Below are positions 50,360 through 56,456 of a stretch of DNA of 57,745 nt, piece after piece. Every line of letters starts with the position of its first letter. The first letter of the stretch is position 1. A program made the position numbers and the translations under genes. A model generated the notes under the pieces. It was not told the origin of the DNA, made no database searches, and saw only the letters and a program-made list of their open reading frames with translations. This stretch comes from Planctomyces sp. (GTDB lineage: Bacteria > Planctomycetota > Planctomycetia > Planctomycetales > Planctomycetaceae): assembly GCA_027483405.1 (NCBI GenBank), contig JAIXUU010000047.1, positions 1-57,745 on the forward strand, written 5' to 3'.

Positions 50360-51682
50360 TTACACTTGCAAGACTTCTGCCCCTTGACCCCAAAGCATAC
50401 CCTGCCGCACGCCAATCACCAATGTTTCTCTCAATTGTCCTAAATCGGAGGCATTTCCCGCGAGGATTACGGGACAGTAACGCTCGTCGGTACCAACGAC
50501 TAAATCAGGATGGTCAGGATGAATGGACTCGACCATAACCTCGATTCTGGAACCTTTCAGATTTTCTCCAAAGGATTGCGCCAGTTGGAGTTCGAGATCT
50601 TCGAGAGCCTTGATCCGAGCATTGATCACATGTCCATGGACACGGTCAGGGAATGTGGCGGCTGGAGTTCCTTCGCGGGCACTGAAGGAGAAGGCATGAA
50701 TTTTTGTGAATCCTACGTTCTGGCAGACGTCGAGAGTTTCAGCAAACTCTTCGTCGGTTTCACCGGGAAAACCTACGATGACATCTGTGGAAAACCCCGG
50801 GTGAGGCAAAGCTTCTTTGAGTTGATCGACAATGTCGATGAATTTTTCTCTGGTATAGCGCCTTCTCATTCGCGACAGCACGGCATTCGAGCCACTTTGC
50901 AGGGCAGGGTGGAACTGAGGACAGAGGTGTTCGGCACTACTGACAGAGCTGATGAATTCATCCGTCATTTCAGCCGCTTCAATGCTCGATAGACGCATTC
51001 TCCAGTGACCAGGGATCTTGTCGAGCCGGTCAATCAGATGCCAGAGCCTGATCCGGGCAGCACCGGGTGTTCTCCTCCTGAGATCCACTCCGTAGTGACC
51101 GATGTGGACACCGGTCAGGATGATTTCCTGATATCCATTGGCGATCAGCTGGCGGACTTCCCGCTCGATGTCTTCGGGTTCGCGACTGATCAGATGGGGA
51201 CGCACCTGGGGAATAATGCAGTAGGTGCAGCGCAGAGCACATCCATCCTGAACTTTCACATATGCCCGCTTGCGTCCCTCAAACCGTTCAATCCCTCGTG
51301 GAAATTCAACCACCCCATATCGCTGGAGAACATCGGGCAATTCGCGGCGATCAGTGACGACCTCATGCACTGAGGGGAGTTGGCGAAACGATTCCGGTGA
51401 TCTCGTCACACCACAACCAACGACAATCGTCCGTGTCCCTGGATTCGACTTTGCTAACTGGCGGACGACTTGCCGCGATCGGGATTCACCGTTCGCTGTG
51501 ACAGTGCAGGTGTTTACGAAGCACAGGTCGGCGATTTCGTGTTCATTAACTTCGCGATATCCGTGTCGGGCCAGCGCTTCTTTGACAAGTTGTGTTTCGT
51601 ACTGATTCACCTTGCAGCCGAGCGTGACAAGGCGGCAAGTTCGCGAAGGAGTGCCAGCTGAATTCGGTTCGACAGACGACAT
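50360..51682 (-). CDS. mtaB: tRNA t6A37 methylthiotransferase MtaB
   Basis: MtaB is a radical-SAM enzyme that adds a methylthio group to t6A37 of tRNA. The 440-residue product has the N-terminal domain with cluster cysteines in RLVTLGCKVNQYE, VNTCTVT and VVGCGVT. The radical-SAM CxxxCxxC is in VQDGCALRCTYCIIPQ near 150. LTGVHIGHYG and RLSSIEAAEMTDEF follow. The C-terminal TRAM-like region covers about 370-435. ATG at 51682 is chosen over TTG at 51691. MtaB uses SAM made by MetK. It has a minus-strand neighbour (STAS) 75 bases downstream. Confidence 0.94.
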   Translation of the reverse strand: MSSVEPNSAGTPSRTCRLVTLGCKVNQYETQLVKEALARHGYREVNEHEIADLCFVNTCTVTANGESRSRQVVRQLAKSNPGTRTIVVGCGVTRSPESFRQLPSVHEVVTDRRELPDVLQRYGVVEFPRGIERFEGRKRAYVKVQDGCALRCTYCIIPQVRPHLISREPEDIEREVRQLIANGYQEIILTGVHIGHYGVDLRRRTPGAARIRLWHLIDRLDKIPGHWRMRLSSIEAAEMTDEFISSVSSAEHLCPQFHPALQSGSNAVLSRMRRRYTREKFIDIVDQLKEALPHPGFSTDVIVGFPGETDEEFAETLDVCQNVGFTKIHAFSFSAREGTPAATFPDRVHGHVINARIKALEDLELQLAQSFGENLKGSRIEVMVESIHPDHPDLVVGTDERYCPVILAGNASDLGQLRETLVIGVRQGMLWGQGAEVLQV

Positions 51683-51929
51683 TGGCAGCAAAAAATCCTG
51701 ATGAGCGAAGCTAATTCAAATCTATTGTAGAAGAAACCTTGGTATTGGCTTGAAATACCTTCTGGCAATGTGAATAGCTGCCAAGACCCAGAGCTTGATT
51801 GTGCAGGCAACAGAACCTCGTAGAACTCATGATGCGATTCATTTATCCGCACCATCAGTCAACTTTACTCACTGGCGCCGTTCCTGATCAGCAAACTTCA
51901 CCGACTGGAAGTCGTAGTAGATCCGAGAC

Positions 51930-51952
51930 AGCCGCTCAACAGATGAGCGGCT
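51930..51952. repeat. Inverted repeat, 8-bp arms
   Basis: AGCCGCTC and GAGCGGCT form a perfect 8-bp stem with a 7-base loop. There is no T-tract on either strand, so terminator function is doubtful. It lies between mtaB and the disordered-protein gene. Confidence 0.5.
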
Positions 51953-51961
51953 GCTCTGATT

Positions 51962-51995
51962 CAGCTGTGACCCATTTTCAGCTGTGACCCATTTT
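51962..51995. repeat. Perfect 17-bp tandem duplication
   Basis: Two adjacent identical copies of CAGCTGTGACCCATTTT (51962-51978, 51979-51995) lie 18 bases before the stop codon of the minus-strand disordered-protein gene. Confidence 0.92.
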
Positions 51996-52013: not shown

Positions 52014-53840
52014 TTAACTGCGATATCTGTCACCTCGCCGATGATCGTCGCGGCGCGGCCTGGAGGAGCGATCTCCTTCAGTGGATGCTGGTGTTTTGAC
52101 GAGCATCCCGATCGCTTCTTCCCAGGTGGGGATATCGTCGTAGTTGGCAGGAGTTACCGGATCGTGCGAAGCTTCATCAACAGTTTGTGAAACGGTTGCT
52201 ACCGGTCGCCTCGATGGAGGAACTTCGAGGTCGCGTGGAGATCGTTCGGTGTAGTTTTCATCACTCACCGGCCGACGCGACCTGTGCCTGGGCTCATCAA
52301 CAAACTCGTTGTCCCGATCACCGATAACAGGATCACTTTCTTTTTTGACACGAGGCGATTCGCTACGGGCAGATTCTGCACGGGGTGGCCTGGCTGGTCG
52401 ATCAGTGCGTTCCTCTGACGCTCTGCGGGGACTACGGTCACGCCTTGAACGATCCCTCGCTGGTTTGTCCGCAGAGCTTTTCTCTGTTCGTGGTGCAGGC
52501 CGTTCGCGCTCGGAGAGCTCGAGCTCGGGTTCATCTGGATCAAGTGCGCGACTGTCTTCGAGATGCTCCTCAAGTTCATCACTGTCTGTACCAAACTCTT
52601 CGGCGACCAAAGGATCGCGCGAAGTTTCGCCAGGCCGATTTCCTGGACGACGACGACGGCGACGGCGGCGACGGCGGCGAACTTCACCTTCTTCTGAAAT
52701 CTCAGAAGATTCTGCGACGAAGGCGACGTCATCGATTTCTGTCACGTCGTCCAGTTCATCATCTTCAGCCAGAGCGTCAACGGGAACTGGTCGTCGTGGT
52801 TGTGAAACCGGTCGAGGAGGGCGGCGCGATGGAGATCGCTCAGAAGTTCCTGCGGACTCACTCAAGCCTGAGCCAAATTCGTCATCATTGGCGGACTGAT
52901 AAGCGGCACGCTCCGTTGCTGGAAGTCGTTCTTCAGCAACTCGTCTCTGGCGTGGTTGACTGGAGGGAGGATACGAATCGTCTCGAGCGGCTTTGGATCG
53001 TGGCACTCCTGAACTTGAATCAGTGGCTCCGGCATGAGCTTCAGCCGATCGGGGTCTCCGTTCCTGCGGAGTTCCTTCGCGAGTGCCAGACTTTCTTTCA
53101 GACCGTCTTTCTCCGGGAGCCGCCGATGAGGAGGGGCGACCACTACGCTCAGATTCTCCTCCGGAATCTCTGGAGGCAGAACGGCGACCTCTCTTCTCAG
53201 CCGCATGGGGATCTGCGAGTTCACGTGCCTGGCGAGAATTCCTCGCAACTTCCGCTTCGAGAGTCTTGAGCAGATCTTTCGGGCGAGACTCGCGGGACTT
53301 GCCTTGCGGTTCGTCCCAGTTCCAGCTTTCGAGGGCATCCCAGTAGTCATCACCCTGTTCGGCGATCGTCATGGGGAATTCATTGTCGGAAGGAACGTCT
53401 TCAAGTTCGTCCTCGTCAAGCTCACTTCTGGGGGGCTCGACGCGACTGGTTGTCTCTTTTGTGACAGATGCTTTTTGAGGAGCACGGGGTGCAGGTCTGG
53501 CTGGACTAACGTCTCGAACTTCAGCCACAGCTTCAAACTCTTCGGCCTCTTCCTCGATATCGGAGTCGAACAGGTCGCTTCCAAACGCATCGTCGATCAC
53601 TTTTTTTCGCCGTGCAGGAGCCGGCGAGGCCGGTGCAGGCAGTTCGGTGATGGAGGGCGTTTCAATGATGGGCTCTTCCTGAGGAAGAGTTGCTGCTGTG
53701 GGAATCGATTCGTTCAACTCGTCAGGATCTGGCAGATCCAGTTCATCGTCGACACCGAACTCAATACCGAACAAATCAGAAGCAAGTTTGCCCCAGGAGT
53801 CATCATCGTGGGCCAAAGGGCGTTTTGGCGGGTTCGTCAT
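52014..53840 (-). CDS. Large intrinsically disordered charged protein
   Basis: The 608-residue product is almost all Asp/Glu, Arg, Ser and Pro and should be disordered. Three ordered-looking islands stand out: DDSWGKLASDLFGIEFG near 10-26, DDYWDALESWNWDEP near 150, and IPTWEEAIGMLVKT near the end. An 11-Arg run (VRRRR...RPGN, about 52646-52681) lies in the middle, and the tail is Arg/Asp/Ser-rich (RRDDHRRGDRYRS). The basic patches fit nucleic-acid binding and the acidic ones ribosome- or chromatin-like partners. The function is unknown. ATG at 53840 is preferred to one 28 codons upstream because it has GAGAAG nearby and a protein-like start. Long antisense frames here are composition artefacts. 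Confidence 0.75.
   Translation of the reverse strand: MTNPPKRPLAHDDDSWGKLASDLFGIEFGVDDELDLPDPDELNESIPTAATLPQEEPIIETPSITELPAPASPAPARRKKVIDDAFGSDLFDSDIEEEAEEFEAVAEVRDVSPARPAPRAPQKASVTKETTSRVEPPRSELDEDELEDVPSDNEFPMTIAEQGDDYWDALESWNWDEPQGKSRESRPKDLLKTLEAEVARNSRQARELADPHAAEKRGRRSASRDSGGESERSGRPSSSAAPGERRSERKSGTREGTPQERRPRSAEAHAGATDSSSGVPRSKAARDDSYPPSSQPRQRRVAEERLPATERAAYQSANDDEFGSGLSESAGTSERSPSRRPPRPVSQPRRPVPVDALAEDDELDDVTEIDDVAFVAESSEISEEGEVRRRRRRRRRRRPGNRPGETSRDPLVAEEFGTDSDELEEHLEDSRALDPDEPELELSERERPAPRTEKSSADKPARDRSRRDRSPRRASEERTDRPARPPRAESARSESPRVKKESDPVIGDRDNEFVDEPRHRSRRPVSDENYTERSPRDLEVPPSRRPVATVSQTVDEASHDPVTPANYDDIPTWEEAIGMLVKTPASTEGDRSSRPRRDDHRRGDRYRS
52646..52681. repeat. CGN triplet run encoding eleven Arg
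   Basis: A short CG-rich triplet tract (ACG/GCG on plus, CGT/CGC on minus) gives eleven Arg codons in a row in the minus-strand gene. Confidence 0.85.
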
Positions 53841-54017: not shown

Positions 54018-54491
54018 TTACGAGGGACGGGTCTGTGTATGGCGAGCCTGCAGGATTTCTGATTGCCGACGAATGGCTGATTGCAGAATTTCTGCGTATT
54101 TGTCGGGCTCATGAAATCCTGTGGATCGAGCGAGAAGTTCAGCCTCCGTATTGATGACGACAGTCGCCGGGAGGGCTTCGACATCGAGAATCTTGGCCGC
54201 TTTATCGTCCTTGTCAAAATCGAGTTTGACGGGTACGAATTCGCGCATCACAAACTGCGCAAGCCGTTTATCCCCAAGGGTTTCCTTCTCAAGTTTATGG
54301 CAGAATCCGCACCAGCTGGCACCGAAGATAATTAGCAGGGGTTTTTGCCTCGAAAGGGCCTGCTGATGGGCTGGTTTAAGTGCCGTAAACCAGTTGACCT
54401 TCGAGGTCTCGGAAGCCATCGATAACTGGCTCAGCAACGGTTGTGCTGCACAAGTGCTGACAAATGCCTGCAGGAATGTCCGGCGATACAT
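54018..54491 (-). CDS. Tat-targeted thioredoxin-fold protein
   Basis: The 157-residue product has an N-terminal YRRTFLQAF, matching the twin-arginine motif (RRxFLx), then a short hydrophobic stretch and MASE. Folded export by Tat is therefore likely. The thioredoxin domain has IFGASWCGFCHKLEKETLGD with an intact CxxC (near 62-65), FVPVKLDFDKDD, and cis-Pro in VEALPATVVIN. It resembles the DUF255/thiol-disulfide group rather than classic Trx. ATG at 54491 is preferred to one 13 codons upstream, because it begins the Tat signal. The neighbours are the disordered protein and DUF4340. Confidence 0.86.
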   Translation of the reverse strand: MYRRTFLQAFVSTCAAQPLLSQLSMASETSKVNWFTALKPAHQQALSRQKPLLIIFGASWCGFCHKLEKETLGDKRLAQFVMREFVPVKLDFDKDDKAAKILDVEALPATVVINTEAELLARSTGFHEPDKYAEILQSAIRRQSEILQARHTQTRPS

Positions 54492-54815
54492 GTTTTGGCC
54501 CCCAAAAATGAGGGCGCACCAGACAAGCATCAGACGCCAGCCCTCACTTGGGGAAATATCGGCACAACTGCCAATCGCACTATCTTCAATTTTGGCGAAT
54601 CACTCGACTGGCAGCTTTTACCGGCAAAGTTCGGCCAGTTCGTCATAACCTTCTTTGGCGTTGATGCTTGCGAGGATTCAATCGACCTCGATCTGCCGAT
54701 TGTGGGTGGTTGGCACACAACATGTCGGGGAATCACGGAGTTTTTTTCTGCTCGCAAGCAGCCAAAGTTGACCGTTTCTGCCAGTACGCTGACAAATCTC
54801 AATCAAGGCGATGGT
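54492..54815. other. Intergenic region between thioredoxin-like and DUF4340 genes
   Basis: About 320 bases. A minus-strand frame at 54530-54802 has no ribosome site, no family match and Ser/Val-rich composition, so it is not accepted. No terminator or promoter is clear. Confidence 0.45.
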
Positions 54816-56456
54816 TTATGGAGCCCCTGGAAGTGTGATTCCCGGTGGGGTGGGAGCAGCAGATTGACCGGTCGTTTCTTCAGCTTTTTTGGGTTGAATG
54901 AGCGTTTTACGACCCTGCTGCAAAGCGTCGAAACTGTCAGAACTGATCACGTAGTACCAATCCGCAAAACGCTGATTGAGTTGCTTGACCTGTTTTTCGC
55001 CGAACATCTTCTTCGTTTCCCATTCCTGCAATTCATCCTTGTACTTGCGAGTCTCTTCCATAAAACGGGCCTGTGCTTCGGCAGCAGCTTTTTGGGAGGC
55101 GGCGATATCATCAGCATTTAAAGTCGTATTCGCCGGAGCGGTCGCACTGGCTGGGCCATCGGCTGTCGTGACGGAATCCGCAGGTTTTACACCCTCCGGC
55201 ATGACAAACGGTTTGGGTTCAACGGGCGGTGTGGGCTTCGGCCCTAAGGCCTCAGGATTAAACTGTGCCATCACAAACAGATACCGATTCTTCGCCTTGG
55301 AAGGATCGGTACTGGCTGGCTGGGTTGCCTTGGGATCGTTCGAATTCTCATCGCCCTTCTTTGTCGCAGCATCCTTGGAATCGTCTCGATTGGCGAAGCC
55401 AAATTCAACTTCCTCTTCGGTCCCGTTAAAGACATTACCAAACCGCAGGACATAGACCACACCCTCGTCGGTCATAGACACGAGATCACCTTCTTTGGAG
55501 TAGATCTCGGACGTTCCGTCTTCCGATTTGACAGGGAAGAAGCCACTGGAAAGTAAATCCATTTGAGTGGCTGGGTCGATGGCAATGCCTTTGTCAAACT
55601 TCAGATCGCGGCTGAGTCTCGCGGGCTTGGGACGGACACCGACAATTTTGAGATTGTCGAGGCCATCGACGAGTTTTTTCATTTCGGTCTCATTCACTTC
55701 CTCTTTGGAAGGGTCAAGACCTGTCATGACCCAGGGGTCCGTCGGCTTTTCTCGGGTCAGTTGATTCGTCTCGCGGCCCATCAATCGACCGCGGTTCTCA
55801 TCCACTGTGTATTTGTCGATAATAATGGTCTTGATGTTATTCGCTTCAAGTTTGAGCAGGTCAGGCTCAATCCAATCTGCAAATCGAGTTGAGAGATTGA
55901 TGTTCAGCTTGGCTGCATAGACATTCTTGTCATTGGAGTCGAGTGGACGAATGTAAAACTGGCCATTGTGGCCGGGAACAGCTTTACCAATCACATAGGA
56001 GGCCAGAACTTTACCATTCTCGTCCTTTAGGGTGATTCGCTGGCCGCGACCGGTCAGTTGAGTTGTATCCTCGGAGAGCGGGTCGATCACATCGAAGTCA
56101 CCATATTGAGAGGGCTGCCGACTGATCAGCTTCTCACGTTTGATGCCCGACATGGAAACAGCGGTTTTGGCAAGGCGGTCTTTGCCATCAGCCGGATAGT
56201 TATGCCTCGAAGGAATTCTCCAGACGCCATCTTTGAAGTCGACGGCAAACACTCGGGCCTCGGCGGTTTCCTTATCATAGGAGACAACCTCCAGAGATTT
56301 CGCATCCGAGGCGTTAGTGAATTCCGGGAAGAATTCCTTACCGACCGAGTCAAAATCCTTGGGAGGTTTGGGAGTCGATGGCCCAGCGAAAAGTGCGGCC
56401 ACCAGCGCGACTAAAGCCACACCGGCAAAAATAAGAGTTCGCTGTGTTTCTCGCAT
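54816..56456 (-). CDS. DUF4340 domain protein
   Basis: The 546-residue product starts with a membrane helix (about 6-26, RTLIFAGVALVALVAALFA), so it is anchored facing outward. The DUF4340 region (about 40-330) has GVWRIPSRHNYPADGKDRLAKTAVSM (cut: WRIPSRHNYPADG), GRGQRITLKDENG and FYIRPLDSNDKNVYAAKL. A Pro/Ala/Lys-rich segment (about 380-460) leads to a helical end with RKYKDELQEWETKKMFGEKQ. DUF4340 proteins are usually encoded next to GldG-type ABC transporter components, as here. It lies ten bases after a 44-codon ORF and near a GldG-like gene, probably one operon. Confidence 0.85.
   Translation of the reverse strand: MRETQRTLIFAGVALVALVAALFAGPSTPKPPKDFDSVGKEFFPEFTNASDAKSLEVVSYDKETAEARVFAVDFKDGVWRIPSRHNYPADGKDRLAKTAVSMSGIKREKLISRQPSQYGDFDVIDPLSEDTTQLTGRGQRITLKDENGKVLASYVIGKAVPGHNGQFYIRPLDSNDKNVYAAKLNINLSTRFADWIEPDLLKLEANNIKTIIIDKYTVDENRGRLMGRETNQLTREKPTDPWVMTGLDPSKEEVNETEMKKLVDGLDNLKIVGVRPKPARLSRDLKFDKGIAIDPATQMDLLSSGFFPVKSEDGTSEIYSKEGDLVSMTDEGVVYVLRFGNVFNGTEEEVEFGFANRDDSKDAATKKGDENSNDPKATQPASTDPSKAKNRYLFVMAQFNPEALGPKPTPPVEPKPFVMPEGVKPADSVTTADGPASATAPANTTLNADDIAASQKAAAEAQARFMEETRKYKDELQEWETKKMFGEKQVKQLNQRFADWYYVISSDSFDALQQGRKTLIQPKKAEETTGQSAAPTPPGITLPGAP

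Follow-up and report, generated by a model that had tools for sequence, protein, structure and literature searches.

The protein described in this study is encoded on the minus strand of a 57,745-nt stretch of Planctomyces sp. DNA (the whole of contig JAIXUU010000047.1, assembly GCA_027483405.1; the whole stretch is referred to as the window) and is probably a free-standing disordered scaffold for RNA-metabolism enzymes, i.e., a degradosome-like hub that is not fused to RNase E and to which partners would dock through short motifs. Constraint is strong in an N-terminal W box (N-box), an FG box, a W..L..W.W box (W-box), the Arg runs, and, towards the C-terminus, a P[TS]WEEAI box (C-box). Sequence comparison shows that the FG box also occurs, well above chance, elsewhere in the class: in Rho, Ski2-like helicase, NYN-LOTUS proteins, one SpoVG, and the inserts that RNase E carries in other families.

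Overall character of the protein

Translation of the minus strand confirmed the open reading frame recognized in an earlier sequence-only reading, with its three Trp-containing islands, 11-Arg run, and Arg/Asp tail (Table 1). The islands SWGKLASDLFG, DYWDALESWNW, and TWEEAIGMLV occupy residues 15 to 25, 165 to 175, and 572 to 581, respectively, and contain all five Trp residues of the protein, which ends in RSSRPRRDDHRRGDRYRS. The protein is acidic overall (pI 4.85, net charge of approximately -37), as are its relatives (pI 4.0 to 5.2 across the scaffold family), and its gene is present in a single copy in its own genome. Searches with the protein sequence retrieved no families from Pfam, NCBIfam, or PHROGs, no matches in viral contigs, and nothing among PDB chain sequences but a low-complexity match with an E value of 0.09. 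The dN/dS ratio against two sister species is approximately 0.14, and none of the approximately 105 island codons carries a nonsynonymous change in these comparisons, while the linkers do change; the frame is therefore coding and constrained.

Table 1. Features of the scaffold locus in the window
Feature	Coordinates	Strand	Residues or sequence	Basis or remark
Scaffold protein ORF	52017..53840	minus	608 aa; ATG at 53840, stop at 52014-52016	Translation
N-box	53757..53807	minus	12-28, DDDSWGKLASDLFGIEF	Single-island profile; AlphaFold2 helix 15-24
Weaker FG-like box, nearer the N-terminus	53559..53594	minus	DDAFGSDLF	FG profile, second match of own genome, E 0.67
W-box	53310..53354	minus	163-177, GDDYWDALESWNWDE	Single-island profile; AlphaFold2 helix 165-172
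Predicted charged helix	53214..53282	minus	187-209, DLLKTLEAEVARNSRQARE...	AlphaFold2; alignment
FG box	52863..52886	minus	319-326, DDEFGSGL	Motif common to RNase E inserts, Rho, Ski2-like helicase, NYN-LOTUS, SpoVG
FG-box peptide			NDDEFGSGLSES	
Arg run	52647..52679	minus	388-398, 11 Arg	Translation
C-box	52095..52145	minus	566-582, NYDDIPTWEEAIGMLVK	Profile; AlphaFold2 helix 573-581
Arg/Asp tail (RG-rich in relatives)	52017..52094	minus		Translation; family comparison
mtaB-type tRNA methylthiotransferase, next gene downstream	50360..51691	minus		TIGR01579 above cut-off; synteny

Conservation of the islands and predicted disorder

The orthologues in the genus share 97, 94, and 57% identity with the protein, the first two being those of the sister species. 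For the third (57%), dN is 0.03 in the islands versus 0.50 in the linkers. In other genera of the family, the overall identity falls to approximately 24 to 34%, yet the order of N-box, W-box, FG box, Arg run, C-box, and Arg/Gly tail is kept, and the islands occur in the same order in more than 12 genera. The Arg-run columns are invariant or nearly so among 24 aligned members, with 9 Arg residues in G001, a relative whose orthologue lies at G001:C1:2845672-2847489, and 11 in two others (G002 and G003). A C-box profile matched 89 of 101 family genomes, almost always once each, and N-box and W-box profiles, run singly, matched most of 41 genomes and did so in the ORFs that the C-box had picked out; all three profiles thus lead to a single ORF per genome.

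When distant members were added, the broader C-box profile reached families f5, f7, f8, and f10 and several of f72 to f80 in the same class, although about one in two genomes of f5 and f7 remained without a C-box match at an E value of ≤0.005. In the scaffolds of these further families, two W..LA..LG boxes are found along with Arg runs, and the C-box is of the type HRNIPTWxEAIxxMVxxNLExR; the FG box and the W..L..W.W box are absent from these Pirellulales-type proteins.

The AlphaFold2 model, calculated from a 24-sequence alignment, has a mean pLDDT of 44, and 497 of the 608 residues lie under 50. Helices are predicted at residues 15 to 24, 89 to 104, 165 to 172, 187 to 209, and 573 to 581, of which the first, third, and fifth coincide with the Trp islands; the helix at residues 187 to 209 is clearly conserved in the alignment within the genus only. 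According to the model, this is a disordered protein with short helices at its three Trp islands. The sequence-only reading had suggested that these islands may be docking motifs, and their presence in the homologues of relatives, within the family and beyond, together with their predicted helical form, supports that suggestion.

An FG box shared with RNA-metabolism proteins

A fourth conserved island, which the earlier reading had overlooked, is the FG box, with the pattern acidic-F-[GAS]-x-G-[LI]. F[GAS]xG[LI] occurs 44 times in 44 nonredundant scaffolds versus 0.4 times in shuffled sequences and 20 times in 9 RNase E inserts versus 0.18 times in shuffles; the motif had been picked after inspection of the sequences, and scans of genomes are the fairer test. 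A profile built from RNase E inserts only (A7) was run against 16 genomes of the scaffold family at an E value of ≤0.25 and gave 14 matches, namely, 5 to the scaffold, 4 to Ski2-like helicase, 1 to Rho, and 4 to other proteins, with 4 matches expected by chance. In the reciprocal direction, a profile built from scaffolds only (A8), run against 16 genomes of the scaffold-less families f2, f3, f4, and f71 at an E value of ≤0.2, gave 17 matches against 3.2 expected: 8 to RNase E, 3 to Rho, 3 to NYN-LOTUS proteins, and 3 to others, two of which were read, the third being a protein of 111 residues. Rho, the helicase, and the NYN proteins were part of neither training profile. Chance was taken to explain the FG-profile matches to DUF1501 proteins, a LysM protein, a secreted repeat protein, and ORFs that look antisense. 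Against the RNase E-only profile, the scaffold of the window genome scores weakly at its own FG box (E value of 1.2), and no strong FG box was found in Rho or the helicase of that genome.

Pfam confirmed the DEAD/Helicase_C, NYN plus OST-HTH/LOTUS, SpoVG, and Rho domains of the FG-box proteins, with the OST-HTH matches lying just under the family cut-off. The box stands at or next to the extreme C-terminus of the NYN-LOTUS proteins, one SpoVG (G061), and one helicase (G047), and it lies near the C-terminus of a helicase from the genus Planctopirus (G003); such terminal boxes have the layout that would be expected of a docking tag. Five NYN plus LOTUS-like proteins (L241, L242, L230, L201, and L206) end exactly in the box (...DDDEFGAGL*), and the SpoVG (L248, G061:C25) has a zinc-ribbon-like insert and a long tail that ends in DDDFGSGII*. 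The Rho proteins of three scaffold-family genomes (L199, L235, and L247) carry disordered N-terminal extensions with an FG box and an Arg-rich run. The association with RNA that had been proposed from the Arg-rich parts thus gains indirect support through the FG box that the scaffold shares with RNase E, Rho, Ski2-like helicase, NYN-LOTUS, and SpoVG, and not through the Arg run by itself.

RNase E in scaffold-bearing and scaffold-less families

RNase E is present in nearly all genomes checked. In the window genome, it is encoded by a separate gene (G000:C146) with an open frame of 553 residues, and the scaffold is not covalently joined to its catalytic domain. The open frame is 525 to 649 residues long in most of the scaffold family and mostly 800 to 1,476 residues long in the scaffold-less families f2 to f4 (956 to 1,476 in most of the genomes first examined); these are open-frame lengths, some of which are cut by contig ends or include frame upstream of the true start. 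The extra length in f2 to f4 is a disordered insert of approximately 410 to 950 residues inside the S1 domain. All 11 of these inserts for which the full sequence was read have FG boxes, and many have Arg runs. No FG box was found in the RNase E of the scaffold families or in the two f71 inserts that were read (225 and 233 residues). We know of no description of a layout with giant disordered inserts inside the RNase E S1 domain, of which L117 to L125, L264, and L265 are examples from families f2, f3, and f4. A third layout is seen in an f6 genome (G041), the RNase E of which (L131) has a disordered C-terminal tail and which gave no scaffold match.

In the class sample, the C-box was found at an E value of ≤0.005 in none of the f2, f3, f4, f6, and f71 genomes and in most others. 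These five families form one clade in a tree of the catalytic part of RNase E (support 93/86), and the complementarity of scaffold and long RNase E therefore amounts to a single evolutionary contrast; the Fisher value of this distribution was accordingly rejected as independent statistical evidence. An origin of the scaffold as a split-off C-terminal tail of RNase E was also rejected, since the disorder of the long RNase E lies inside S1 rather than at the C-terminus and is without W and C boxes.

Genomic context

The mtaB gene lies directly downstream of the scaffold gene, on the same strand, in up to 10 of the sampled loci; this linkage is missing in most genera although the scaffold protein persists. 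Upstream (54018-56456 and beyond), a thioredoxin-like gene, a DUF4340 gene, and further conserved genes precede the scaffold gene in several genera. Synteny was set aside as a main functional clue because mtaB, the thioredoxin-like and DUF4340 genes, and a few others adjoin the scaffold gene in only part of the family and the arrangement is too variable. Just 3' of the scaffold stop codon, positions 51960-51993 hold two exact head-to-tail copies of TTCAGCTGTGACCCATT, and positions 51929-51953 form a perfect 10-bp inverted repeat (CAGCCGCTCA/TGAGCGGCTG) with a 5-nt loop and without a T run.

Comparison with known systems

The C-terminal scaffolds of RNase E in the degradosomes of E. coli, Pseudomonas, and Caulobacter are disordered and contain short linear motifs and Arg-rich segments (PMC11964227, PMC4435900). 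The window protein is likewise long and disordered, with short conserved motifs and Arg-rich segments; unlike these domains, it is the product of a separate single-copy gene, has unrelated motifs of its own, and lacks a catalytic domain, and its partners are putative. A further mark of the RNase E scaffold domains is an amphipathic membrane-targeting helix; the helices predicted in the window protein are those of the islands, the one at residues 89 to 104, and the charged one at residues 187 to 209. Its layout works like that of the proteobacterial RNase E scaffold, but as a separate protein it falls outside that family.

Cyanobacterial RNase E has an Arg-rich PNPase-binding nonapeptide, RRRRRRSSA (PMC12489471, PMC10989914), at its very C-terminus (PMC10989914). 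The window protein shares with it a run of at least six Arg residues in a disordered segment, whereas this run is internal (residues 388 to 398 of 608), is followed by PG, and belongs to a separate protein. The S1 inserts of planctomycete RNase E in f2, f3, and f4 resemble the scaffold in being disordered and acidic with FG boxes, often with Arg runs, and differ from it in lying inside RNase E and in lacking the N-box, W-box, and C-box. The R. capsulatus degradosome contains RNase E, Rho, and two DEAD-box helicases (PMC3071783), which is a functional set similar to that considered here; however, no stand-alone disordered scaffold is described there.

Alternative explanations

The FG motif is short and was chosen after inspection, and acidic disordered segments are common in the class, so that the box might be a mere habit of such segments, with no shared complex behind it and a role of the scaffold unrelated to RNA decay. 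We consider this unlikely, as the matches outside RNA-related proteins do not exceed chance in either scan (4 versus 4 and 3 versus 3.2); the matches beyond the chance number are to RNase E, Rho, Ski2-like helicase, and NYN-LOTUS. To about the same degree, we doubt that the protein is a condensate organizer without specific docking of RNA enzymes, in which the Trp and FG islands would be self-association stickers and the Arg runs and RG tail would catch RNA. Its disorder, its Arg runs and RG tail, and the strong charge and low complexity of its sequence would suit such an organizer, and phase separation is described for a Bacteroides Rho that has a disordered region (PMC10284900); however, stickers need no such exact sequence or order, whereas the islands are unchanged in the genus and can be retrieved by profiles across genera, and the FG box is common to particular enzymes, often as one terminal copy. 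Condensate formation in itself, which the sequence-only reading had also put forward, is plausible.

A factor acting in translation, with tRNA modification or with ribosomes through its Arg-rich parts, would fit the mtaB neighbour and the contacts that Arg-rich segments of E. coli RNase E make with ribosomes (PMC11964227). Most genera, however, keep the protein without the mtaB linkage, and the FG-box proteins found belong to decay, termination, and helicase functions, none being ribosomal, which makes this role improbable. For the ribosome interaction suggested in the sequence-only reading, nothing was found in favor beyond the frequent MtaB neighbour. Planctomycetes have condensed nucleoids, and a disordered protein with Arg runs might bind DNA there; its net charge of approximately -37 and the acidic pI throughout the family set it apart from basic nucleoid proteins, and the FG box suggests a link with RNA proteins instead. 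A nucleoid function is more improbable still.

Proposed function and implications

In the favored explanation, a disordered scaffold for RNA-metabolism enzymes, one common partner would read the FG box and might thereby gather the scaffold, the helicase, Rho, the NYN protein, and RNase E (the last in other families) into a single complex. Further partners may dock at the W boxes and the C-box, and the Arg run and RG tail may bind RNA or an enzyme, PNPase for example, by analogy with the cyanobacterial nonapeptide. In scaffold-bearing lineages, the scaffold would make up for the docking region missing from their short RNase E, although the link between the scaffold and the RNase E of its own family is one that we only infer; in the scaffold-less clade, similar motifs would be carried inside the RNase E S1 domain. 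It is possible, and we suggest it tentatively, that the Planctomycetia have a degradosome built on a non-nuclease disordered hub, with a class-specific FG-box code on RNase E, Rho, Ski2-like helicase, NYN-LOTUS, and SpoVG, and that one lineage moved docking into an RNase E insert.

A survey in 2011 recorded planctomycete RNase E of 509 to 588 residues, without a scaffold region, and for this reason credited the Planctomycetes with no degradosome-forming potential (PMC3071783); no description of a planctomycete degradosome was found in the literature searched. If our explanation is true, a separate scaffold gene would overturn the view that planctomycetes have no potential for a degradosome (PMC3071783) and suggests a way to look for degradosomes in further phyla whose RNase E is short. 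With the FG box there is a concrete bait for its reader protein, and tests are feasible because P. limnophila, a close relative, has been the subject of a genome-wide essential-gene study with transposon mutants (PMC10632474). If this is true, a single docking code, carried by Rho, RNase E, and helicases alike, would link transcription termination with RNA decay.
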